Origin: a virus
Direction: 5' to 3' (one strand)
IMG/VR virus record: IMGVR_UViG_3300008267_007453
Span: 1-24,737 of that record
DNA length: 24,737 nucleotides
Position numbers and translations under genes: made by a program. Positions within the stretch are counted from its first letter, which is position 1; each line of letters begins with the position of its first letter. Under the pieces are notes generated by a model. It was not told the origin of the DNA and searched no databases. It saw only the letters and a list, made by a program, of their open reading frames with translations. Below are positions 3,300-16,659 of the stretch, one piece after another.

Positions 3300-4009
3300 T
3301 GTCTATGAAAACTGTGGTAATCATGCCGGGTGGATTCCACCCATTTCACGCTGGACACATGGCTCTGTATCAATCGGCTCGCGAAGCCTTTCCAGATGCA
3401 GATGTGTATGTGGCGGCCACCGATGATACCAGTACCCGGCCTTTTCCTTTTGCAGTCAAAGAAAAACTAGCACAGCTGGCCGGAGTTGAACCTGGGCACT
3501 TTGTCAAGGTAAAAAGTCCATTCGGTGCTGAAGAGATAACCAGCCGTTACAATCCTGCTGAAGATCGTGTGATATTTGTCCGCAGTGAAAAAGATCGTGA
3601 CCAACCACCCAGACCCGGCGGAAACAAAAAGGATGGCACACCAGCCAAGTTACAACCTTTAGACGATAACCCCCAACCGTTTGGCCAGCACGTTTACATG
3701 ACCTATCTACCCACAGTGGAATTTGGTCCGGGACTCACATCAGCCACAGAAATACGCACAGCTTGGCCCACTTTGAATGAAAAACGCAAAACAGCCTTGG
3801 TCATGAGCCTGTATCCGGCCACCCAACGCAATCCTGCCTTGGCCGCCACGGTGGTCAAGATGTTGGACACTGCCATCGTAAAAGACAGCACTAATGAAAA
3901 TGCTGACTACATAGAAGAAAAATGGAGCCAGAAATACAAGAGCAGTATCAACTGTGCCAACCCCCGAGGCTTTAGCCAACGGGCACACTGCGCCGGCCGC
4001 AAAAAATAA
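3299..4009 (+). CDS. HxGH-family nucleotidylyltransferase with Cys-containing basic tail
   Basis: This belongs to the cytidylyltransferase-like superfamily (which includes NMN adenylyltransferase and phosphopantetheine adenylyltransferase) and would transfer a nucleotidyl group from an NTP. Residues numbered from ATG 3299: the Rossmann nucleotide site VVIMPGGFHPFHAGHMALY (about 6-24) contains the HxGH signature, and TSATEIR further on fits the (T/I)SSTxxR motif that binds the triphosphate. The substrate cannot be read off; NMN or a sugar/polyol phosphate are all possible. The last 18 residues, CANPRGFSQRAHCAGRKK, form a separate Cys-containing basic module not expected in these enzymes. ATG 3305 is an equally good start, because neither ATG has a Shine-Dalgarno box and the late-promoter-like box ends at 3299. 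A glycosyltransferase follows, so nucleotide-sugar or cofactor chemistry is plausible. Confidence 0.85.
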   Translation: MSMKTVVIMPGGFHPFHAGHMALYQSAREAFPDADVYVAATDDTSTRPFPFAVKEKLAQLAGVEPGHFVKVKSPFGAEEITSRYNPAEDRVIFVRSEKDRDQPPRPGGNKKDGTPAKLQPLDDNPQPFGQHVYMTYLPTVEFGPGLTSATEIRTAWPTLNEKRKTALVMSLYPATQRNPALAATVVKMLDTAIVKDSTNENADYIEEKWSQKYKSSINCANPRGFSQRAHCAGRKK

Positions 4010-4979: not shown

Positions 4980-7900
4980 ATGAATATTCTTGAACTGGAT
5001 TCTTACCGTCTTGGCGACGCTGTCAAGTTTAATGACCAATTAAACCCAAAACTGTGGGGATCCGACGAGCACCTGCATCCGCAAATCCGTGAGCAACTGT
5101 TACGCATAGCTGAAGATTTTGCTGAGTTCCTAGGTGTTTCGAACTTTGAAATCAAAGACATCACCATTTCGGGCAGCAATGCCGCTTATACCTACACTGC
5201 CAATTCTGACATAGATCTGCACTTGGTGGTGGATCTGCCCAAGGCCGACGCCAGCGAAGTGTACAGAGAACTGTTTGACGCTAAGAAGTATCAGTACAAC
5301 GATCAGCACAACATCACCATTGGTGGCTATGACGTAGAACTCTACGTACAAAATGCCAACCAACCACACATCAGCCAAGGCATTTATTCTGTGTTGAACA
5401 ACGACTGGGTTTCAGTGCCCCGACGTGCCCGACCCACAGTGGATGACATCAGCACACGCAGCAAATATGAAACCTTGAGCCAACAGATTGACCAGGCTAT
5501 CGAATCCAAGGACTATGAAATGATCACGACCCTGGTCAACAAGATCAAAAAGATGCGCCAAACAGGGCTGGAACAGCATGGAGAATTTGGTCCAGAAAAT
5601 ATAGCATTCAAAATGTTACGCAGCCAAGGCGCTATCGAACGCCTGTATGCCGCACGCAACGCAGCCAAGGACGAATTATTAAGTTTAGACGAACGTCGTC
5701 GAAAGAAAAAAGGTTCTAGCAAAAAACGCTGGGGGTACTTTGGCGGTTACTGGTATCCGGGCACAGGCTATGCTGGCCAAGACACTCCGGCTGCACAGGC
5801 TGATGGTGGCGGCGATGGCGGTGCTGAAAGCATCAGAGAAGATGCGGGACAGACTGATGAACAGATACTCAAAGATTTTATACGATTCTGTGTGTCCGAA
5901 CTTGAGATCAAACAGATGCCTCGAGTTCGACTGCGTAAAGATCCAGAATGGCCCAAACGTCATCGAACATTTGGTCGTTACAGTGATGATGCCCAGCAAT
6001 TGGAAGTGGCCTGGGGCAATCGCCACATCATGGATGTGTTGCGTACTGTGGCCCACGAACTCACTCACAAACGCCAACACGAACGTGAAGCAGTTCCAGC
6101 CGATGCAGGCGAGACCGGCAGTGAATATGAAAACGAAGCCAACGCCCGAGCCGGTGTACTCATGCGTGACTGGGCCCGACTGCATCCCGAACACTTTGAA
6201 GCAGGCCAAGTTGATGAGCTAGAAGAAGGTTGGAAAGAACGAGCCGGTGCTGTTGCAGCAGCGGCCTGTATTGCTGGAACACCGGGATGCAGTAGCACAG
6301 GACAGGTTATAAAAACCACACAGGATGTGGGCCGCACTGTACAGACAGCCAAGAACATGACACGTGCCGGAGTTCAGGATGAATTGAGCCAAGAACTGCG
6401 CAACTTTATCCGTGCCCAAGGTGGTGACCCAGGCAGCCAGAATTTGAGTACCTTGTACAAATTAAAAAAGCGTATAACCAACAAGCCCGATCCAGCAAAT
6501 GAATCAGCTTCTGGATATATTCCAACAAAGAAGCAGGCCCGGGATCCAAGATTCAGTATGGCATTGACTGTGGACATCAAACCAGGTCAAGTGGGCAAAG
6601 AAGCCAACAAATTAAAATTACGGACCAACCGGCAAGGTGCACCACAAATTGCCCAAGCCAATGGCCTGTTTGAAAACTTGTTTAAAGAATATAAACAGTA
6701 CAAGGCCGACGAAGACTACAGCCCGGATGAACCGCCTGGCCCAGAATTTGATCCTGACCTGTTCGAAATCAGTGACGATTTACGCCGTAGTTATTTAGGT
6801 CGTGCTGGTCAACAGGTCGATCGCAGACAGGAACGCATGGCCCAGGTCAGAGATAGACTCAACAAGGGCTACGAAATATACCACGCTGAAGATCCCACTT
6901 TCACAGTCCACAGATTTGAAGCCAACACACCTGCTGATGCACGACGCTATTACGAAACGTTTATTGATCGCTACGAGAGTGATCGAGACTTTGATTTGCA
7001 ACTACGTAGAGCCACAGGTTTGATGGAAAGTGAAGAAGAACTAGACGAAGTCAACATGAGTCCTGGTGCACTGGAAAAGTTTGCCGCCAGCAAAGAAGCA
7101 CAAGGCATACGTGCTGGTTTTGAAGCCGAACTCATATTCCGCGATACCCAGGGCGAATCGGATGAGGAGGATCCTGAACCCGACTACGATGCTGACGAGC
7201 GTGCCTACAGCATCTCACAGGTCATTGAGTTCTTTGACAATGACGAATACGGCTATGGACTCGGCGATAGAGAACGCAACAGGCTGGAAGAAAATCTTGA
7301 CGAAACTTACATGAACTGGCGCGATGAGCAGATGACATCGGACTTCCGCAACGACGCCGAAGATCTGGTGCGTGAAATACATTTGGACGAAGTGCCCTTG
7401 AGCGAACGTATCATTAAAGTGCTAACAGATGGCATGGAGATAGATGATGCCGAAGCAGATAAAATCTTGGCCGTGGGAGTGGATGCACCACGATTTACCA
7501 GCAGCGCGGAGCAAGCGGCCTATGCTGAACAGAATCCTAACTACAAGATATATCTGGAAGCCTTGGACGATGCTGAAGCTATTTTGGACGAAGAAGTAGA
7601 AACCAGTATTGAGAAACAAGACGGCTATTACGATCAAGCCTTGGACGACTATCGCGACAACTGGTCGGGTGACGATGACAGCTTTTTCTCAGATGTTGGT
7701 CTGCGTTGGATGAGCGACATTGCCAACGAATACGGTCTGGACTGGCCGGTGTGGAACATGGGCAACGGCGGCAACAGCGGCAGCAGAGACTGGGATGAAA
7801 TTGGTGCAGAACTACAACAAGTTGTAGGCATGCCGGTCAAAGTCAGTTCAAACTATCACAGCACACCACGCAAAGAAGGACAATGGATCATAGAACCCGA

Positions 7901-9668
7901 CGGCAGTTTGAGTCCGGATGACCGCAGTGAAGAAGCCGGCTTGGAAATAGTCAGCCCGCCCATGCCCTTGCTGATGGCCATAGCCAAATTGAAAGAAGTC
8001 ACAGACTGGGCCAATGATCCGCAAGGAGGCAATGCCTACACCAACAGCTCAACAGGCCTGCACATGGGTGTGAGCCTGCCCATTAGAGGTGGCGATGTGG
8101 ACTATGTGAAGTTGATCTTGTTCATGGGTGACAAGTATGTGTTGGACACATTTGGTCGCGAAGCCAACAGCTTTACTGCCAGCGCCTTGGGCAAACTTCA
8201 GCAAAACATCCGAGGCAAACGAAGTGATCCGGCTGGTGTGGTAGAGTTATTGCGCCACGGACTCACTGAACTGGCTTTCAAAGAACTACAAAAAGGTGTG
8301 GGTACCAGCAAGTACACATCAGCACATCTGCAGAACGGCTACATTGAATTCCGTAGTCCGGGTGGTGACTGGTTGGCCAAGGCCGACGAAGAAATGGGTG
8401 TGTTGGAAAACACCATGATGCGTTTTGCCCGTGCCATGCAGATCGCTGGCGACCCCAGTGCCGAACGTGCGGAATATGCCAAGAAGCTGTACAAGTTGGT
8501 CACTGCCGACAACGAACAGTACACGGATCAACTGCGCCTGTTCAGTGAATTCTCAGCCGGTACCATCAACAAAGAACAGTTAAAGAAACAGTGGGCTGAA
8601 AAGACCATTGGCAAACAAAAAGAAATAAATCAGCGTTGGAAACTGTATCAAATGTTCAACGGCACCTGGTCACCAGTGCCCGGACAAGAATACAACGGCT
8701 ATACCGAAGACGAAGCCAAGAACAAAGTATGGAGCAAGTATGGTCGTGAAGCACTAGACTCGGGCGAATATCAATTGGTCAACATGGGCGAGCAAGACTG
8801 GGAAGTGTATGATGTCAAAACCAACAAGACCCTGGAAGTAGTCAAAGGCAAGAGCAAGGGTGAAGTGGCCGATGCTGTGTATGACAAGTATGTGGATCAA
8901 GGTATTGGATTCAATGTGCGTCCTTACGAAGATCCAGCCACCATGACACCAAGAGCCAAGTTGGCCAAGCGTATCACAACCAAGAAACAAGAACCCGAGC
9001 AACTTACACAAGCAACAAACGAGCGTGGCGTTCCTTATTGGGAAATTTTTGAACGCGAAACTGGACATGTTGTGCATACCTTCCTGGCTGACACACAAGC
9101 AGATGCTTGGGAAGATACTAAGAATTGGTTGGCGGGCATGAACGCAGAACAGCCTAACCTGTTTAGTATGCGACCCAAGATGATACCAAATCCGCAGACC
9201 ACAGACAACAAAAAAGATTCTGTGGACATACAACGCAGATTGGGTGTGCAGGATGTGGACACGGATGTGGCGCAGAACTTTAATCAGCCACAAGATGCCA
9301 CACAAAGATCAGGTTCCTGGAGCATATATGATGTTACCCTGGGGCGCGAAATCACTAGAATGGACAATGTTCCATGGCAACAGGCCAATGATCGTGCCAA
9401 TGAATTGGAACAAAGCACTGGACACAATATGTCGGTCCGAGGGCTGTCAGAAAATCGCAGTGCCATAGGGCAGTCCATAAAAAGTATAGAAGAAAACTTT
9501 GCCGACGGCCGAGTCAAAGGAAAAAGCCGCCCAGGACGTGTGAAACGTGCAGGTGCCAGTTGCAACGGAAGTGTGACGGACCTACGTCGACGTGCTAAAA
9601 ATGCAAGTGGCGAAAAGGCAAAAATGTATCATTGGTGTGCCAATATGAAATCAGGGAGAAAAAAATGA
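4980..9668 (+). CDS. 1562-aa multidomain protein: nucleotidyltransferase, HExxH metallopeptidase, amidoligase-like, repeats, Cys/basic tail
   Basis: This is the largest gene in the window and an unusual fusion. (a) Residues 1-235: nucleotidyltransferase-like, with GSNAAYTY (65-72), DID (77-79) and D118/E120 as the third acidic site. (b) About 230-280: Lys-rich linker, then YWYPGTGYAG and a Gly-rich segment. (c) About 285-410: metallopeptidase-like, with HELTH (359-363) and a downstream ENEA (E386) as probable third zinc ligand, a gluzincin pattern. (d) About 700-1150: amidoligase-like (glutamine-synthetase-like fold), with GFEAEL (713-718), WIIEPDGSL (969-977), LEIVSPP (988-994), STGLHMGV (around H1028) and EFRSPGG (E1123), and an acidic insert between the first two. 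(e) Four related modules of about 50 residues, one before and three after the amidoligase. (f) A C-terminal tail with KMYHWCANMKSGRKK. Domain order is seen; the functions are by motif. The combination suggests ATP-dependent peptide or amide chemistry combined with proteolysis. Confidence 0.82.
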   Translation: MNILELDSYRLGDAVKFNDQLNPKLWGSDEHLHPQIREQLLRIAEDFAEFLGVSNFEIKDITISGSNAAYTYTANSDIDLHLVVDLPKADASEVYRELFDAKKYQYNDQHNITIGGYDVELYVQNANQPHISQGIYSVLNNDWVSVPRRARPTVDDISTRSKYETLSQQIDQAIESKDYEMITTLVNKIKKMRQTGLEQHGEFGPENIAFKMLRSQGAIERLYAARNAAKDELLSLDERRRKKKGSSKKRWGYFGGYWYPGTGYAGQDTPAAQADGGGDGGAESIREDAGQTDEQILKDFIRFCVSELEIKQMPRVRLRKDPEWPKRHRTFGRYSDDAQQLEVAWGNRHIMDVLRTVAHELTHKRQHEREAVPADAGETGSEYENEANARAGVLMRDWARLHPEHFEAGQVDELEEGWKERAGAVAAAACIAGTPGCSSTGQVIKTTQDVGRTVQTAKNMTRAGVQDELSQELRNFIRAQGGDPGSQNLSTLYKLKKRITNKPDPANESASGYIPTKKQARDPRFSMALTVDIKPGQVGKEANKLKLRTNRQGAPQIAQANGLFENLFKEYKQYKADEDYSPDEPPGPEFDPDLFEISDDLRRSYLGRAGQQVDRRQERMAQVRDRLNKGYEIYHAEDPTFTVHRFEANTPADARRYYETFIDRYESDRDFDLQLRRATGLMESEEELDEVNMSPGALEKFAASKEAQGIRAGFEAELIFRDTQGESDEEDPEPDYDADERAYSISQVIEFFDNDEYGYGLGDRERNRLEENLDETYMNWRDEQMTSDFRNDAEDLVREIHLDEVPLSERIIKVLTDGMEIDDAEADKILAVGVDAPRFTSSAEQAAYAEQNPNYKIYLEALDDAEAILDEEVETSIEKQDGYYDQALDDYRDNWSGDDDSFFSDVGLRWMSDIANEYGLDWPVWNMGNGGNSGSRDWDEIGAELQQVVGMPVKVSSNYHSTPRKEGQWIIEPDGSLSPDDRSEEAGLEIVSPPMPLLMAIAKLKEVTDWANDPQGGNAYTNSSTGLHMGVSLPIRGGDVDYVKLILFMGDKYVLDTFGREANSFTASALGKLQQNIRGKRSDPAGVVELLRHGLTELAFKELQKGVGTSKYTSAHLQNGYIEFRSPGGDWLAKADEEMGVLENTMMRFARAMQIAGDPSAERAEYAKKLYKLVTADNEQYTDQLRLFSEFSAGTINKEQLKKQWAEKTIGKQKEINQRWKLYQMFNGTWSPVPGQEYNGYTEDEAKNKVWSKYGREALDSGEYQLVNMGEQDWEVYDVKTNKTLEVVKGKSKGEVADAVYDKYVDQGIGFNVRPYEDPATMTPRAKLAKRITTKKQEPEQLTQATNERGVPYWEIFERETGHVVHTFLADTQADAWEDTKNWLAGMNAEQPNLFSMRPKMIPNPQTTDNKKDSVDIQRRLGVQDVDTDVAQNFNQPQDATQRSGSWSIYDVTLGREITRMDNVPWQQANDRANELEQSTGHNMSVRGLSENRSAIGQSIKSIEENFADGRVKGKSRPGRVKRAGASCNGSVTDLRRRAKNASGEKAKMYHWCANMKSGRKK
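6870..7010 (+). repeat. WxIYD-type protein module, copy 1 (divergent)
   Basis: The encoded segment begins YEIYHAEDP, continues FTVHRFEANTPADARRYYE and ends near DFDLQLRR. It shares the plan of the three C-terminal modules of the same protein: aromatic-x-I-Y, a short turn, a strand ending in F or V, then an Ala/Asp helix. The copies are protein-level repeats and are not obviously similar as DNA. Confidence 0.45.
8799..9439 (+). repeat. Three tandem WxIYD-type protein modules, copies 2-4
   Basis: Copy 2 (8799 to about 8924) starts WEVYDVKTN and ends near FNVRP. Copy 3 (9039-9176) starts WEIFERETGHVV and ends FSMRP. Copy 4 (9318 to about 9439) starts WSIYDVTLGRE and ends MSVRG. Each is about 40-46 residues: a WxIYD strand, a Gly turn, a second strand, a helix containing Ala-Trp or Ala-Asn, and a closing (S/N)(V/M)R(P/G). 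Spacing is about 240-280 bases start to start. They look like small alpha/beta binding modules; the ligand is unknown. Confidence 0.6.
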
Positions 9669-10270
9669 AACATCTATTACTAGTATTAGCGTTACTGACT
9701 GTCAATGTCCAGGCGCAAACACCGGGCATTACCACTTGTGATGGTGAATATGCGCTGTGTGCCGCAAGCACTTGCAAACCAGTCCTGAACAAAGACGGTA
9801 CACCAAAAACAATCACCGGCAACAACGGTGTGGCCTATCCCGAAGTCGAATGCCGTTGTCCTATACTCACAGGTCGTGCCATTGCTGATACCTCAGCCGG
9901 CAACATGAAAGGCTCATGTGCGCCTACCAGTGATAAAAACGTTTGGAGTTTGTTTGCTCCCAAACTGTTTTATCCACAAGAAGCCAATGACTTTAGTTCA
10001 TTGCCTTGGAAACAAAAAGCCACTGTACAAAAATGCGATGCCAGTTTGAATCTTGGCGCCAAGTCCAGCAACTGTTTCAGTTGGAATTGTGTCAAGGGTG
10101 CAGATGGCATAGCAGTGTGTTCATGCCCTACAGGACAAGTACCACCAGCAACATCATTCTTGACCGAAGCTGGGCAAGGCAATCCTGAAGCATGTGCTCA
10201 GTATCCAGTGAGCTTACCACTCAAGGCACAAGACCGAGCTGAAGCTAAAGACTCTAAAGGAAAGAAATGA
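9665..10270 (+). CDS. Exported Cys-rich protein (201 aa)
   Basis: ATG 9665 overlaps the stop of the giant gene as ATGA, with GGGAGAAAAAA as ribosome-binding region, so the longer open frame upstream is not needed. The first 18 residues, MKHLLLVLALLTVNVQAQ, are a textbook signal peptide with probable cleavage after Ala 17. The mature protein has about ten Cys (for example CDGEYALCAASTC, ECRCP and VCSCPTG), consistent with disulphides in the periplasm or outside the cell. I recognise no enzymatic motif. The C-terminus is charged (RAEAKDSKGKK). It forms a coupled pair with the next gene, whose ATG overlaps this stop, and that partner is also exported, so they probably act together. An exported protein pair is uncommon inside a T4-like block and suggests an acquired host-derived cassette. 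Confidence 0.8.
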   Translation: MKHLLLVLALLTVNVQAQTPGITTCDGEYALCAASTCKPVLNKDGTPKTITGNNGVAYPEVECRCPILTGRAIADTSAGNMKGSCAPTSDKNVWSLFAPKLFYPQEANDFSSLPWKQKATVQKCDASLNLGAKSSNCFSWNCVKGADGIAVCSCPTGQVPPATSFLTEAGQGNPEACAQYPVSLPLKAQDRAEAKDSKGKK

Positions 10271-11361
10271 AAAATATTAAATCGGGAATCGTAGCGGTAT
10301 TATTTGCTGTAGGCAGTGTTGCCATGGCATCGGATGAACCAACCACATTGTTAAGCTCTGGAACCATAAGCCCTTACGAAGCTCAAAGGAATGGACTGTT
10401 CATGGCTGCAGATTTTCTTGCGGCAGTGCCTGGCAACACACGATTCGAAATCAGCACACAGCCCTGGATGGATACCACAAACAACACCGTGGTCATCGCA
10501 AAGATGCCATTTGTGAGTGGTACCAAATATGCCAAAGACTATGCCAAGGAAGGCAGTGTATTTGCTATAACCGAAGATGCTAAGTATCGTTATTTTGTAG
10601 GCAATGGATTGCCAAACACCGCCATGGGCGACTTTCCTGTGCAACCTGGCACTCCTGCTTACAAGTTTTACCAGGCAGCTCCAGGCGGCCATGACTTTAG
10701 AACAGGCTTTCCTGGTCATGACTATTCCAGTGCCGCGGCCATTGGCGTCAGTCCTTATGAGTTGAATATCCAACTACCTAAAATCCCAAAGCTAAGTGCC
10801 AAGCCCAATCCCATTGCCGCATTGCCAATCGGTGTCACGCTCACAGGCACAGTATGGCACGCTGAGATTGCCAACGCCAGTAGCACAGCCTGGTATCCAC
10901 CAGCTTCAATCTTGCCCGTTGATCAGTGCTGGGGACATCCTTATGCTCAACAATATCACCTGCACGGTTATAGCTGGAAGTGTTTCCCCAATCAAGGAAC
11001 TGAAGGACATTCACCCTTGTTTGGTTATGCCCTGGATGGATTTGGTATCTACGGTCCCAGAGGCGACGATGGCAAAATGGTTACCAATGCCCAACTGGAC
11101 GAATGCCATGGACACACCCATCCAGTCATGTGGGATGGAAAGATGCAGAATATCTATCACTATCACTTGAACAATGAATTTCCCTATGCCATTGGCTGTT
11201 TTAGAGGGGAAGTTAACTATGACCAAGCCCTAGGGTCGGCTGATATGAGGGCACACAACAAGCCTCATGGAGTACCAGGCAAAGGACACAACCACAAACA
11301 TAATCAGAAAAGTGACAAACTGCCAAATATTATTGCAGTACCCATTGGAGCCTTCCAGTAA
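10267..11361 (+). CDS. Exported YHYH-domain protein (364 aa)
   Basis: The ATG at 10267 overlaps the previous stop. Residues 1-21 (MKNIKSGIVAVLFAVGSVAMA) form a signal peptide. The C-terminal half carries the hallmarks of the YHYH domain (Pfam YHYH family): YALDGFGIYGPRG (254-266), LDECHGH (277-283), the eponymous YHYH (297-300) and FPYAIGCFRGE. The region before it is His/Trp/Cys-rich (CWGHPYAQQYHLHGYSWKC), and the extreme C-terminus has GHNHKHNQK, so metal binding is plausible. YHYH proteins occur in bacteria and some eukaryotes and have no established activity that I know of. It is full-length, with no frameshift. With the upstream secreted Cys-rich protein it forms a two-gene exported unit. 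The next gene starts directly after its stop (TAAATG). Confidence 0.85.
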   Translation: MKNIKSGIVAVLFAVGSVAMASDEPTTLLSSGTISPYEAQRNGLFMAADFLAAVPGNTRFEISTQPWMDTTNNTVVIAKMPFVSGTKYAKDYAKEGSVFAITEDAKYRYFVGNGLPNTAMGDFPVQPGTPAYKFYQAAPGGHDFRTGFPGHDYSSAAAIGVSPYELNIQLPKIPKLSAKPNPIAALPIGVTLTGTVWHAEIANASSTAWYPPASILPVDQCWGHPYAQQYHLHGYSWKCFPNQGTEGHSPLFGYALDGFGIYGPRGDDGKMVTNAQLDECHGHTHPVMWDGKMQNIYHYHLNNEFPYAIGCFRGEVNYDQALGSADMRAHNKPHGVPGKGHNHKHNQKSDKLPNIIAVPIGAFQ

Positions 11362-12546
11362 ATGCGAGCACAAGAGCTAGGATCCGGCAAGCTGGTCATA
11401 TTTGACATTGATGACACCTTGGTCAACACTGACACCCGAGTCAATGTGGTGCAAGATGGCAAGGTCATCAAGCAGTTGAACAGCCACGACTTTACGCACT
11501 ACAAACTGGGTCCCGGTGAAACATTTGACTTTGGTGCTTTCAAAGATGCTAGAGAATTTTTTACCAAAGCTAAACCCATACCCGGCATGATACGACAATT
11601 AAAGCAAGACATAGCCACAGGCAATCGAGTGATCATGCTCACAGCTAGGTCGGACTTCAATGACCGCGATGTGTTCTTGGACACATTCCGCAGATTTGGC
11701 ATAGACATGGACCGGGTTCACGTATATCGTGCCGGCAATCTTGCCATCAAAGCAGCCACAGAAGAAAAGAAAAAGATCATACTCAAGCATTTGTTGGGCA
11801 AAGAGCACTTTGACAAGCTGATCATGTATGATGACTCAGTACCCAACTTGAATGCTTTCTTGAGCTTAAAGCAGGATTATCCTTACAGCAAATTTTACGC
11901 CTGGCACGTGGACCCAAATGGCCAAGCCGCAGAATATCATAGAACCGACGAAGGTGCAGTAATGGAGATAGCCCGTATACCACAAGGTGACTTTGGTGAC
12001 AAAGACACACTTGCACCCATGGCAAACAAACCCAAAACCAAACCCTTGCCCGGTGGAAGCCAATTCTCCTATGCCGTAAACAAAAAAGATCCTGAGTTTA
12101 TGGAAATCATGATCTTTGACGGTGACACATTAGTTGCCGAACTAGATGTTTCTGCAACACTTGATCCATTAAAAACTTGGATAATAGAAACTATAGCTGT
12201 TGATCCTGACTATCGTAATCGAGGTTTAGGCAAGGCCTTGTATGGTATCGCTCTTACCATACTCAAACTTACCTTAGAAGCCGGGGCAACACAGACCAAA
12301 TTTGGTCAAGCCATGTGGATCATGTTAAACAGTATTCCAGGAGTAGAAGTTCTAGGATATGCCATGGAACCAACCGATAAGTATCGTCCACGATCAGGTG
12401 ACCGTGTAGTAGATCAAAACGATACGTGGACTCGATACACATTTCCTGTAGAGCCCGGACGTAGAAGTATGCGTAGCACCCGACGTGGCACTGGCATTTA
12501 TAGTAGTCAGTATGTTAGTATGATAGCACGGTGGACTGGACAATGA
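11362..12546 (+). CDS. HAD-family phosphatase/hydrolase fused to GNAT acetyltransferase
   Basis: Two enzyme domains lie in one 394-residue chain. Residues 1-175 are a HAD domain: FDIDDTLV (14-21) with nucleophile D15 and general acid/base D17, the second motif in MLTARSDFND (92-101), a Lys-rich segment with the motif III lysine near 136-138, and IMYDDSVPN (154-162) with the metal-binding DD pair. The pattern resembles polynucleotide 3'-phosphatase-like HADs of phages. Residues about 235-370 are a GNAT N-acetyltransferase domain with VDPDYRNRGLGKALY (280-294) as the acetyl-CoA loop. An Asp/Pro/Lys linker joins them. The chain ends with Arg/Ser-rich residues. Substrates cannot be read from sequence; nucleic-acid end repair for the HAD half is only a possibility. 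Its stop overlaps the next ATG (ATGA). Confidence 0.88.
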   Translation: MRAQELGSGKLVIFDIDDTLVNTDTRVNVVQDGKVIKQLNSHDFTHYKLGPGETFDFGAFKDAREFFTKAKPIPGMIRQLKQDIATGNRVIMLTARSDFNDRDVFLDTFRRFGIDMDRVHVYRAGNLAIKAATEEKKKIILKHLLGKEHFDKLIMYDDSVPNLNAFLSLKQDYPYSKFYAWHVDPNGQAAEYHRTDEGAVMEIARIPQGDFGDKDTLAPMANKPKTKPLPGGSQFSYAVNKKDPEFMEIMIFDGDTLVAELDVSATLDPLKTWIIETIAVDPDYRNRGLGKALYGIALTILKLTLEAGATQTKFGQAMWIMLNSIPGVEVLGYAMEPTDKYRPRSGDRVVDQNDTWTRYTFPVEPGRRSMRSTRRGTGIYSSQYVSMIARWTGQ

Positions 12547-12748: not shown

Positions 12749-13045
12749 ATGACCAAGCAATATGTTCGTGTTGTAGCAGATTTACACTGTAGTTGGGAAG
12801 GATTACCTCCCATATATCGTGTGTATGTCAATGACGAATTATTCAGCGAGCGCACCTGGATCTGGACCGACTCGTATTTGGAAGAGAATTTGCAGATATT
12901 GGCAGAGCCTGGCAAATACAAAATACGCTTTGAGCTGGTGCCGCCGTATTTGGCGCAATTATGGATGAAAGATCTGCGTGTGAGCCAGGGTCGTGCTTCT
13001 ATCAAAAACAACGAATTATTAAGGATACGCGATGCGAGCCAGTGA
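12749..13045 (+). CDS. Small beta-rich protein, possible virion component (98 aa)
   Basis: I use ATG 12749; the open frame extends further upstream but into the preceding gene. The 98-residue product alternates strands: YVRVVADLHCSW, IYRVYVNDELFSERTWIW (about residues 22-39), LEENLQILAEPGKYKIRFEL (44-63), and a closing VSQGRASIKNNELLRIRD. The motif of a short strand, VNDELFSERTWIW and a PGKY turn is reminiscent of jelly-roll accessory proteins near structural genes in T4-like marine phages, similar in style to the proteins at 2471 and 2853. No catalytic residues or targeting signals are seen. Its end overlaps the next gene by 14 bases. Confidence 0.7.
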   Translation: MTKQYVRVVADLHCSWEGLPPIYRVYVNDELFSERTWIWTDSYLEENLQILAEPGKYKIRFELVPPYLAQLWMKDLRVSQGRASIKNNELLRIRDASQ

Positions 13046-13232
13046 GTTTATTGCAGAAAATGCTTCAGCAGGAGCTACCAGCTCAGGCAGTGTGGCCACA
13101 GTTGCCATGCCACTGGGAGGCGTGCAAAAAAGAAATGGCGGTTCTTTTTTTACAGGCGCTAAATACTCTAACGAGCCATTTCCGAACACACCGGATTGGA
13201 TGAAAAAAGGGAAAAAGAAACGTGCTAGATGA
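13032..13232 (+). CDS. Small Gly/Ser-rich basic-tailed protein (66 aa)
   Basis: ATG 13032 has an AAGGA box 6-8 bases upstream, inside the end of the preceding gene. The 66-residue product starts MRASEFIAE, has a flexible Ala/Gly/Ser segment (ASAGATSSGSVATVAMPLGG) and ends in DWMKKGKKKRAR, a strongly basic tail. It is unlikely to fold as a globular domain and looks like a peptide that binds nucleic acid or is packaged in the virion. The basic terminus echoes the tails of several larger proteins in this window. An A6GAA/TTCT7 inverted repeat lies within its coding sequence. The function is unknown. Confidence 0.65.
   Translation: MRASEFIAENASAGATSSGSVATVAMPLGGVQKRNGGSFFTGAKYSNEPFPNTPDWMKKGKKKRAR
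13126..13151 (+). other. A/T-only inverted repeat inside a coding region
   Basis: AAAAAAGAA (13126-13134) pairs perfectly with TTCTTTTTT (13142-13150) around a 7-base loop, followed by another T. It resembles a weak bidirectional terminator in form but lies in the middle of a small gene and has no G/C pairs at the stem base. Transcript slowing or polymerase slippage is possible; a coding coincidence (Lys-Arg and Phe-Phe codons) is equally likely. Confidence 0.3.
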
Positions 13233-13662
13233 TTTATTAAAACAGTTATTGGCCTCAAATTTCGCTTATTATTTGAAAGCGCACATGTTCCATTGGAACG
13301 TGGAAGGCCCTGACTTTGGACAACTGCACAAATTTTTCAGTAAGATCTACGAGGACGCCTACGGTGCCACAGATCCTATCGCCGAATATATCAGAACACT
13401 AGAAGAATATGCGCCGGGCAGCTTAGAGCGTTTTCAAGAACTCAGTCTTATTTCCGGGCAGACCAAGATTCCACGTGCCCGACTCATGTTGGAAGAATTG
13501 TTGGCCGACACACAGACCATGAAAGATCTGGTCATGCAGGTGTTTGCTGTTGCACAGGAAGCCGGCAGAGAAGACATTGCCAATTTCATGGCCGAGCGTC
13601 AAAACAGCCATGGCAAATACATGTGGCAAATAAAGAGTTACTTGAAAGACGCCAGAGCATAA
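13222..13662 (+). CDS. dps: Dps-like ferritin-family protein
   Basis: This is a 146-residue DNA-protection-during-starvation type ferritin, which oxidises Fe(II) with peroxide, stores iron and can coat DNA as a dodecamer. The frame starts with GTG 13222, overlapping the preceding gene by 11 bases. Dps ligand spacing is preserved: HMFHW with H24, H36 (GQLHKFF), D51 and E55 (DPIAEYIR), the same 12/15/4 spacing as H51, H63, D78 and E82 of E. coli Dps. The domain is slightly short, and the N-terminus lacks the Lys-rich DNA-binding tail of E. coli Dps. Its presence inside a phage block suggests protection of phage or host DNA against oxidative damage during infection, or iron sequestration; that is inference. 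The stop overlaps the next ATG as TAATG. Confidence 0.88.
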   Translation: MLDDLLKQLLASNFAYYLKAHMFHWNVEGPDFGQLHKFFSKIYEDAYGATDPIAEYIRTLEEYAPGSLERFQELSLISGQTKIPRARLMLEELLADTQTMKDLVMQVFAVAQEAGREDIANFMAERQNSHGKYMWQIKSYLKDARA

Positions 13663-14291: not shown

Positions 14292-15559
14292 TGTTAAGCC
14301 TAGATTTGTTTGATTCACGATACGAACGTGACCTGCGTGAAGGTGCTGTTGACGACCTAGAAGCCCGCAGGATTGATGATCTTAACGATCGCATGCAGGA
14401 CTTGTTGGCTCGTGCCCGAGAAGCCAAGACACCTGAACACAAAGCAGGTCTTAAGCGTGAGTTTGACAAAGTCAAAGACGAGCGTGACAGCTATTATAAA
14501 GTACGCGAAGCTGGCATTCCTGGCAACGTGCCAGTAGAAAAGATACCTGGCAAAGAAGACCTACTCCGAGGCCGGGGCCGTAGCTACTACGAAGATCAAA
14601 AAAAAAGTTCTGATGAAGTAGACGAACACGGCGGCGGCATAGGTCCGCGTCAACACTGGCAGGATCTCATGCAAGAGCGTAAATTGTCAGTGGGTGATCC
14701 TGTTGTGGTTACAGCACCCAACGAGTTCGAAGGCAAGACTGGTGAAGTTGCTGAGTTTAGCCCAAGTGGCAAGTTTGTGGTAGTTAACTTGTACAACCAC
14801 GGTGAACACAGCATGCACCTAAGCGATATTGCCTTTAATGAATATGCTGATCAAGAAGATGATGATGAAGGTGTGGCGGAGACTGTGACAGATCATCGTG
14901 CAGGCATGGCTCGAATATATCGTCGACTGGCTCCTAAGATTGAACGCTACCGAGACAGTTTCCTTGCTGGCCAACTGTATGATGAACTAGAAAACTATGC
15001 TGAACTACATGGTGCTGAAAGAGAATTCAAACAGATGATGAATGGTGCTAGAAACCGTGCCCACATGGAATACGACACCAACCCGGGTGGTTTCCACAAC
15101 TGGTTCTGGTTCCTGCCGTTTGAGGACGAAGGTGTAGAAGAAGGTTGGAGTGATGCCGTGGTTTCTCGAAGAACAGGCACGCCACGCACACCGTATTCAG
15201 TTTTTATCAAAGGTAGGAAGTGGAAAGACTTTGAGAATGACGATCATGCTGAGGCTGTAGCAAACAAATTACGGGCCAAGTTCAAAGCAGATGGACGTGA
15301 TCCGAGCGTTATTACTATTGCTCCCACTGACATGTCCGAAGGCGTCACAGAAGATCAAGACACATCGGGTGTGGAACAAGCAATACTCAAACGTATCATG
15401 GTTGCTCATCTTGATTTGTTACGACAATATGGTCCAGAAAAAGTCATGCAGGCCGCAGAAGAAGTGGCCTATAATGTGGGTGATGTGGACGAGATTGGCA
15501 CCAGTGATGTCAGTGCGTATGTTCAACAGGTCAAACAAATTCTCGGAGCTGTCGCTTGA
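14291..15559 (+). CDS. Modular protein with KOW/SH3-like domain (422 aa)
   Basis: ATG 14291 shares a base with the previous stop (TAATG). Residues 1-75 are helical and charged (LDLFDSRYERDLREGAV, LEARRIDDLNDRMQDLLARA). A KOW/SH3-like barrel lies at about 132-185: KLSVGDPVVVTAP, then FEGKTGEVAEFSPSGKFVVV and HLSDIAFNEY, which resembles ribosomal/NusG KOW motifs used in RNA or protein binding. A helical segment follows, then an alpha/beta module with YSVFIKGRKWKDFENDDHAE and ITIAPTD, related in plan to the WxIYD modules. The C-terminal helix pair (RIMVAHLDLLRQYGPEKVMQ, VDEIGTSDVSAYVQQV) is acidic. There is no signal peptide or Cys motif. The overall impression is a multi-module adaptor protein of unknown partner. 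Confidence 0.75.
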   Translation: MLSLDLFDSRYERDLREGAVDDLEARRIDDLNDRMQDLLARAREAKTPEHKAGLKREFDKVKDERDSYYKVREAGIPGNVPVEKIPGKEDLLRGRGRSYYEDQKKSSDEVDEHGGGIGPRQHWQDLMQERKLSVGDPVVVTAPNEFEGKTGEVAEFSPSGKFVVVNLYNHGEHSMHLSDIAFNEYADQEDDDEGVAETVTDHRAGMARIYRRLAPKIERYRDSFLAGQLYDELENYAELHGAEREFKQMMNGARNRAHMEYDTNPGGFHNWFWFLPFEDEGVEEGWSDAVVSRRTGTPRTPYSVFIKGRKWKDFENDDHAEAVANKLRAKFKADGRDPSVITIAPTDMSEGVTEDQDTSGVEQAILKRIMVAHLDLLRQYGPEKVMQAAEEVAYNVGDVDEIGTSDVSAYVQQVKQILGAVA

Positions 15560-16659
15560 GATACGCTGAAATCCTAGAAGCCTGTTGGAAGGGTTATCGT
15601 CAAGCCGGCATGAAGAAAAAGGGTGATCGTCAGGTGCCCAACTGTGTACCTGTCAGCGAGAATGAAGTTCGCCACGATGCTGACAATTTTAGTCCCAATG
15701 ACAATGCACTAGATCGACTGCATCATGAATTTATTCCCACCTGGCAAATATTAAATCATAAAGTTTTAAAGACTGCTTACAATTTTGCAGATGACGACAC
15801 AGCCTTGGAATTTGTACAAGCCATCAAACTGATGGGAGAACACATGGATCACAACGGTGTAATCACCCTGGACAACGCACAGGTCACTGTGGAAGTGACC
15901 ACACATGATGTCAACGGTCTTACACGTTTAGATTTTGAATATGCATTGAAAGCTCACGATCTGGCCAACAAGATGAATGGTGATCAAGAGCCACATCCTA
16001 CAAATTCTTTAGAAGCCATAGAAGAAGATTTAAAAAAATGGTTCAAAGAAAAGTGGGTGCGTTTTGGACCCGACGGCAAGATCCGTGGAGACTGTGCCCG
16101 AGGATCCAGCAAAGAAGGCAAGCCAAAATGTTTACCACAAAGCAAGGCACATGCTCTAGGTAAAAAAGGTCGTGCCAGTTCCGCGGCCAAGAAACGTAGA
16201 GAAGATCCCAATCCTGAACGTCGTGGTCCAGCCCGGAATGTTGCCACCAAGGTCAAAGAAGGTTCATCAGCGATCACAGATGAAGATGTAACTGATTTAA
16301 TACACGACATAGCTGTGAATTTAATATTCAATAAACAAAGAATGTCTATTAGAGAAAATGATCCAACACTGGTTGCCAAGGAAGTTCATAAGGCATACAA
16401 GATGGAAGGTATTCCTTTTACACAAACTGATTTAGATCGCGTGTTGGCCTTGTTTCCTAAAGTTATGAAACGTTTAAGAAAAGGTTTCCGCGATGAAGGA
16501 GACATGTACAAAGAAGAACAAGAACTTGATGAAAAACAAGATGCCTGCTATAACAAAGTAAAAAGTCGTTACAAGGTCTGGCCGTCGGCTTATGCCAGCG
16601 GAGCCCTTGTTCAGTGTCGTAAAAAAGGTGCCGCTAATTGGGGCAACAAGAAAAAATGA
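15556..16659 (+). CDS. Pterin-4a-carbinolamine dehydratase-like domain flanked by Cys modules (367 aa)
   Basis: TTG 15556 overlaps the previous stop. The N-terminus is a Cys module, CWKGYRQAGMKKKGDRQ followed by VPNCVP (10-32). Residues about 53-137 match the PCD/DCoH fold: PTWQI, YNFADDDTALEFVQAI, the GEHMDHNG active-site region (94-101) and VTVEVTTHDVNGLTRLDFEY. Of the PCD active-site signature, E95, H99, N100, H117 and D126 are present, but the Pro and the aromatic that normally follow are replaced, so the enzyme is degenerate or repurposed. Residues 175-225 carry a second Cys/basic module (GDCARGSSKEGKPKCLP, with KKRRE after it), 240-315 are helical, and 330-367 form a third module (DACYNKVKSRYKVWPSAY then CRKKGAANWGNKKK). 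The function is probably binding rather than pterin chemistry. Confidence 0.7.
   Translation: MRYAEILEACWKGYRQAGMKKKGDRQVPNCVPVSENEVRHDADNFSPNDNALDRLHHEFIPTWQILNHKVLKTAYNFADDDTALEFVQAIKLMGEHMDHNGVITLDNAQVTVEVTTHDVNGLTRLDFEYALKAHDLANKMNGDQEPHPTNSLEAIEEDLKKWFKEKWVRFGPDGKIRGDCARGSSKEGKPKCLPQSKAHALGKKGRASSAAKKRREDPNPERRGPARNVATKVKEGSSAITDEDVTDLIHDIAVNLIFNKQRMSIRENDPTLVAKEVHKAYKMEGIPFTQTDLDRVLALFPKVMKRLRKGFRDEGDMYKEEQELDEKQDACYNKVKSRYKVWPSAYASGALVQCRKKGAANWGNKKK

Follow-up and report, generated by a model that had tools for sequence, protein, structure and literature searches.

The 1562-residue protein P0001, encoded by a virus record of 24,737 bases (analyzed here over its whole length and called the window), is probably a polyprotein that a T4-like jumbo phage packages in its head and that would be cleaved as the head matures, yielding separate proteins for ejection. 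P0001 is a single open frame and a real ORF. The same N-terminal domain order recurs in ∼20 long relatives, and the modules of the chain were found in ∼80 related contigs, either singly behind a short leader or fused with other modules (Table 1). The original prediction placed a nucleotidyltransferase (NTase), an HExxH peptidase, and an amidoligase-like domain in this one frame, and all three calls stand. Together they give P0001 the feature by which polyvalent proteins are recognized, unrelated enzymatic domains on one polypeptide of a mobile element. The segments at residues 239 to 287, 417 to 690, and 1241 to 1562, absent from that prediction, are included here. A phmmer search of the chain against PDB sequences returned nothing useful.

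Table 1. Features of the window discussed in the text; a slash marks the putative cleavage point at a junction or leader end.
Feature	Position	Strand	Evidence and remarks
Cytidylyltransferase-like protein with C-terminal T2 after junction YIEE/KWSQKYK	3305..4009	+	PF01467, E 1.7e-5
P0001, putative polyprotein ORF, 1562 aa	4980..9668	+	One open frame; ∼20 long relatives with same N-terminal order
Pol-beta-type nucleotidyltransferase, residues 1-238, starts MNILEL, ends at junction LSLDE/	4980..5693	+	phrog_36119; AAD(9)-like model
Basic Gly/Tyr-rich linker peptide, residues 239-287, ends at junction ESIRE/	5694..5840	+	pI 9.9; low pLDDT
Minigluzincin-like HExxH domain, residues 288-416, ends at junction DELEE/	5841..6227	+	HExxH conservation; jannalysin model match
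Basic segment, residues 417-565, begins GWKERAGAVAAAACIAGTPGC, ends at junction NGLFE/	6228..6674	+	Start shared with leader-borne forms in L012 (12904) and L052 (13035)
Acidic linker, residues 566-596, ends at junction PDLFE/	6675..6767	+	Stand-alone ISDE modules start directly after leader
ISDD module, residues 597-690, ends at junction EELDE/	6768..7049	+	L052 MRAKEFINE/ISDEQLERYLSRAGRQ; L012 MRAQEFVSE/ISDEKLQ
Amidoligase module, residues 691-1240, begins VNMSPGALEKF	7050..8699	+	PF12224 in 31/31; stand-alone with leader in L033, L036, L037, L039
Short W-x-[IVLS]-[YF]-[DE]-like repeats, then junction KSIEE/, residues 1241-1505	8700..9494	+	Read from sequence by eye
T1 module, residues 1506-1562, 57 aa, two Cys	9495..9665	+	Basic (pI 11.3); 72 loci carry T1
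HAD-like plus GNAT protein, starts MRAQEL (targeting-like, without cleavage half)	11362..12546	+	PF00583, E 1.6e-6; relatives MRASEF, MRAQEF
66-aa leader peptide MRASEFIAE/NASAGATSSGSVATVAM...	13032..13232	+	Resembles mature capsid protein N terminus of relatives
Leader MRYAEILE/ plus T3, pterin dehydratase, AIEE/ T4, ELDE/ T5	15556..16659	+	PF01329, E 2.9e-16; TTG start

The N-terminal domain, singled out originally by GSNAAYTY...DID, is a Pol-beta nucleotidyltransferase: it combines a GS motif and DxD, in which D77 and D79 are invariant, with profile and fold matches. The sequence GSNAAYTYTANSDID falls within a profile match of phrog_36119 to residues 15 to 232 (E = 4.8e-46), and the AlphaFold model of the domain matches AAD(9)/AadA in Foldseek (E = 9.6e-4). 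In Pfam, NTP_transf_2 matches 21 of the 23 NTase homologues (best E = 5.5e-6), with the window protein itself under the cut-off. M1, E5, and L6 are invariant among these 23 homologues, stand-alone relatives start with MRLEEF and MRLNEF, and the MNILEL start of P0001 is followed by no cleavage site at residues 8 to 10. To judge by its sequence, the MxxxEL start of P0001 would be a targeting element without the cleavage half.

In the peptidase domain, HELTH corresponds to H359, E360, and H363. These residues, together with R355 and Q366, are invariant in 36/36 homologues, and E384 is conserved in all 35 readable ones. The sequences therefore carry the HExxH and downstream Glu that define gluzincins and minigluzincins (36/36 and, for E384, 35/35 readable). 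The metallopeptidase-like call is upheld, but the downstream glutamate originally named, E386, is conserved in 33 of 36 homologues, and the third zinc ligand is for that reason more likely E384. Foldseek matched the domain model (HELTH within residues 288 to 412) to the minigluzincin jannalysin (4jix) with a probability of 0.99 but an E value of 0.03; IrrE (3dti) was a weaker match. PF18818 (MPTase-PolyVal), the zincin of polyvalent clades, matched 1 of 23 homologues (E = 0.016).

The amidoligase assignment, drawn originally from the series GFEAEL/WIIEPDGSL/LEIVSPP/EFRSPGG, is borne out by PF12224 (Amidoligase_2), which scores 25 bits in P0001 against a gathering cut-off of 22 (E = 2.1e-5) and matches every amidoligase homologue (31/31 at E 0.01). 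GFEAE, EPDGS, EIVSPP, GLHM, and EFRSPGG are strongly conserved. A comparison of residues 700 to 1150 with glutamine-synthetase-like ligases had also been proposed; the top Foldseek matches of the amidoligase model are mostly to that family but weak, the best having an E value of 0.017.

The chain ends in a different kind of module. T1, its C-terminal 57 residues, is 79 to 95% identical in dozens of contigs with no other similarity to the query; at E 1e-3, tblastn of T1 matched nothing in isolated phages, and hence no isolate carrying it was found. Four more small basic modules with two Cys lie in the window, T2 closing the cytidylyltransferase-like ORF and the other three (T3, T4, and T5) in the pterin dehydratase ORF, and each recurs in other contigs, alone or joined to different partners. 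T5 occurs in 365 phage records, mostly of cyanophages. In the three genomes searched, each module looked for was present in at most one copy, in different carriers, a pattern to be expected if what counts is the mature pieces, not whether they are fused. Upstream of T1, repeats of the form W-x-[IVS]-[YF]-[DE] run through window positions 8700 to 9449 (residues 1241 to 1490), possibly forming a small alpha-beta domain; a similar stretch lies near residue 640.

At most junctions between modules, the preceding residues follow a hydrophobic-x-E rule. Among nonredundant contexts with Glu at P1 (T6, with too few contexts, was left out), 87 of 92 have L, I, V, M, or F at P3, although the contigs counted here also served to shape the module and leader patterns. 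By module, P3 is hydrophobic in 42/46 contexts for T1, 18/18 for T2, 4/5 for T3, 8/8 for T4, 7/7 for T5, and 8/8 for the amidoligase start; other Glu residues of these ORFs have such a P3 in 26% of cases and those of these linkers in 29% (binomial P = 5e-44; Fisher P = 1e-31). Other positions are mostly near or below background, with P4 of T2 and T5 somewhat raised. A conserved Glu could belong to the module, but a hydrophobic P3 in otherwise unrelated sequence hardly can. At the sequence level, these 87 of 92 borders of mature parts carry the L/I-x-E-type sites that mark T4 gp21 cargo.

The rule is not universal, since Glu is absent before T3 in 7 of 12 contexts and before T5 in 3 of 10. Nor does the motif alone predict cutting: P0001 holds 32 hydrophobic-x-E sites, many of them within folded parts. 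The junction sites are largely kept in 22 long relatives, near residues 238 (in 21 relatives), 287 (20), 416 (20), 565 (19), and 690 (21); the PDLFE/ site near residue 596 is kept in 7/22 only.

Stand-alone modules begin with a short leader, MRAxEF[IV]xE, which ends where the fused modules begin. Examples are MRAREFVVE/ before the peptidase, MKYLELKEQLLNE/ before the amidoligase, MRAKEFINE/ before an ISDD-type module, MRAFEIVE/ before T1, MKAYEFITE/ before T2, and MRAKEFISE/ before T4. A cleavable-looking N-terminal capsid targeting sequence is present on the stand-alone modules, and P0001 itself has MNILEL only. In the loci, the leader pattern occurs in 173 of 1512 predicted ORFs versus 9 of 2365 overlapping control ORFs, a comparison for which the pattern was partly shaped on the same data. 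The fairer, held-out count, from outside the loci in three records of 328 to 355 kb, shows a smaller effect (12/1200 versus 2/1882; P = 4e-4) and indicates that the leader occurs only rarely across a genome, mostly within a few clusters. Scanned proteins bearing it include pterin dehydratase, GH19 chitinase, cytidylyltransferase, 5'-nucleotidase, GNAT, methyltransferase, and ParB-like domains. In a partial coverage of the literature since 2010 on "capsid targeting sequence," no title or abstract dealt with environmental phages.

In T4, gp21 cleaves after L/I-x-E, and the ten N-terminal residues of IPIII are enough for packaging (PMC9026906). The window is a fragment in which no head genes, and hence no prohead protease, are seen. 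Peptidase_S77 (the gp21 family; at 285393 to 285815 in the relative G008, for example) and the Gp23 capsid protein occur together in 8 of 15 relative records; the other 7, which may be fragments, have neither. Every record with the capsid gene (8/8) therefore also encodes a gp21-family protease. The capsid proteins read in these relatives have YLxE/ or HLxE/ ahead of the mature part; one has KYLKE/NASAGSTVSGNIATLN, and small leader peptides have MRASEFIAE/NASAGATSSGSVATVAM. Because the resemblance extends across the bond in both directions, it links the leaders to capsid maturation; it would reflect either a mimic of the capsid arm or a shared protease site. Past the presumed cut, the small leader peptides (that of the window included) read NASAGATSSGSVAT and the mature capsid N termini of relatives read NASAGSTVSGNIAT; the capsid N termini compared were those of L080 to L082, L086, and L087.

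Homologues of some of the window's proteins have been detected in virions. Mass spectrometry of purified virions of Synechococcus phage S-CREM2 (PMC10665884, Table 3) yielded 3, 5, 6, and 7 unique peptides for gp154, gp155, gp156, and gp160, respectively; gp154 is annotated as cytidylyltransferase and the other three as hypothetical, and the authors noted that copurification is possible. We found that gp156 is a homologue of the P0001 NTase (37%, E = 1e-41) and that gp160 carries T4-T3-T5-type modules joined at LEE/ and ISE/; BLAST matches the T3 and T5 parts of gp160 to the window's pterin dehydratase ORF, and the T4 part was assigned by eye. The start of gp154 is MKNFSSFLTE/. BLAST of gp154 against the window's cytidylyltransferase-like ORF gave no match, so only annotation and gene order pair the two. 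In S-SM1 virions, too, a putative cytidylyltransferase was reported (PMC3037559). Virion presence is thus observed for homologues in S-CREM2 and would be predicted for P0001.

Across the S-CREM2 proteome, a loose leader pattern occurs in 5 of 52 detected versus 4 of 167 undetected proteins (P = 0.037). A tighter F-L-x-E form is confined to detected proteins, but it was chosen after the fact and is given no P value. Leaders resembling the T4 capsid targeting sequence were seen on the virion-detected gp6, gp13, gp14, gp136, and gp154 (OR473000), which comprise a SAM hydrolase, a kinase, the cytidylyltransferase, and two hypothetical proteins; the S-CREM2 leaders read MKDFDSFLEE, MKRFDAFLTE, MKNFSSFLTE, MKDLHSFLTE, and MQTFSMFFSE. 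The Cas9-like gp12 has RFASFMAE near its start. The virion protein gp174 (146 aa) was suspected, from its equal length, to correspond to the ferritin-like neighbor in the window and was rejected because the two share no similarity.

Cleavage, delivery by ejection, and the targets of the enzymes we infer as follows. The MxxxEL of the NTase, as the targeting half of a T4-type capsid targeting sequence, would bring the chain into the prohead core, where a gp21-family prohead protease, while maturing the capsid, would cut it after hydrophobic-x-Glu at the module junctions, most likely after residues 238, 287, 416, 565, 596, 690, and 1505. The cuts would free the NTase, the minigluzincin, the amidoligase, and small basic peptides inside the head. 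The freed proteins would be ejected with the DNA, and the enzymes would then act on the new host, where, to judge from T4 Alt and polyvalent proteins, their substrates early in infection are expected to be host macromolecules. Contact with the packaged DNA, and possibly a role there, may fall to the basic two-Cys peptides. More broadly, there is a reasonable likelihood that a group of uncultured T4-like jumbo phages shares a modular polyprotein grammar, in which enzymes and two-Cys peptides are drawn from a common pool and joined or kept apart at will, the leader gives entry to the head, and the capsid-maturation protease separates the pieces.

Could the chain instead act as a unit? The original prediction saw the three domains as jointly forming a peptide-tagging or precursor-processing system. 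All three are present and the amidoligase motifs are conserved, but the domains are separable: the NTase is the sole domain in many isolated phages, the peptidase in S-SRM01, and the amidoligase in Atu_ph07, with leader-borne copies of the latter in L036 to L039. In addition, no substrate peptide was identified, and we give a joint machine hardly any credence. What survives of that proposal is its precursor-processing direction, with the roles changed. The chain is more likely a precursor than a processing system because its junctions, like the capsid protein, conform to the rule of gp21-type prohead proteases. Ejection of P0001 whole, as one multidomain effector of the polyvalent type (Iyer et al. 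2017), would suit its disparate enzyme domains, zincin-like and Pol-beta ones included, and the N4 virion RNA polymerase is packaged unprocessed (PMC5512222); given the junction rule and the stand-alone modules whose leaders end at the same point, we consider it unlikely.

The remaining alternatives concern the junctions themselves. If the HExxH domain cut its own chain, the hydrophobic-x-E junctions would be its sites, and autoprocessing by such domains was proposed for other polyvalent proteins (PMC5512222). The same junctions, however, occur in peptidase-free chains (the pterin dehydratase ORF of the window and S-CREM2 gp160) and in the capsid protein, which makes self-cutting highly improbable. 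Equally hard to credit is a motif that arises without any protease, as a mere linker habit or a recombination seam: the modules are clearly shuffled, but other Glu residues of the same linkers have a hydrophobic P3 in only 29% of cases, and the capsid protein and leader peptides are alike on both sides of the bond.

A head-packaged precursor closely recalls the T4 internal head proteins (IPI to IPIII and Alt, with their CTS and gp21), with which it shares L/I-x-E-type sites, an N-terminal leader of ∼10 residues on the stand-alone forms, and, in relatives of P0001, a gp21-family protease and a Gp23-type capsid protein. Unlike T4 cargo, which is one protein per gene, P0001 chains several enzymes and peptides with internal sites; it also lacks a cleavable leader, and V is commoner at P3 of the junctions than in the T4 rule. 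Polyvalent proteins (Iyer et al. 2017, PMC5512222) resemble P0001 in joining unrelated enzyme domains, zincin-like and Pol-beta among them, and in their expected entry into the host with DNA. The main text of that study, however, includes no amidoligase, and the processing proposed there is by the zincin, whereas the P0001 sites fit a prohead protease and occur without a zincin. In the parts of the accounts of phiKZ and SPN3US head maturation that we cite (PMC7411985, PMC9026906), a gp21-related protease likewise cuts after Glu and cargo is ejected, but it is long propeptides that are removed, and a multienzyme chain is not described. The cyanophage proteins S-SM2 SSM2_109 and S-CREM2 gp160, the latter found in virions, are strings of the same two-Cys modules with several hydrophobic-x-E junctions; both are annotated as hypothetical only, and no enzyme domain was recognized in gp160.

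If the proposed processing holds, P0001 would be a phage polyprotein from which the protease that matures the head releases several enzymes, an arrangement more familiar in RNA viruses. A sequence rule would then predict the head-carried proteins of uncultured phages, including many annotated as hypothetical, and the injected arsenal of these phages could become legible from sequence alone. The shared leader would also explain the SAM hydrolase, kinase, and cytidylyltransferase in cyanophage virions.

Several further observations concern neighboring genes and related modules. A ferritin/Dps-like protein (window 13222 to 13662; PF00210, E = 8.7e-22) lies inside the cargo cluster and has no leader; in G008, a similar ORF (138052 to 138489) follows the leader peptide. 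Between leader-type genes, window positions 9632 to 11361 hold two ORFs with signal-peptide-like N termini, the second with a YHYH motif. SSM2_109 (L115:2669-4795, T4-GC 119) is located between gp16 and gp17. Another two-Cys module (RRRSFRARHNC...YWSCRAW) is found in G008 (322698 to 323369), HTVC008M (L116:3737-4138), and Roseobacter phages CRP-901 and CRP-902; the Roseobacter/Pelagibacter phages with it have genomes of ∼50 kb or less and seem unlike T4.
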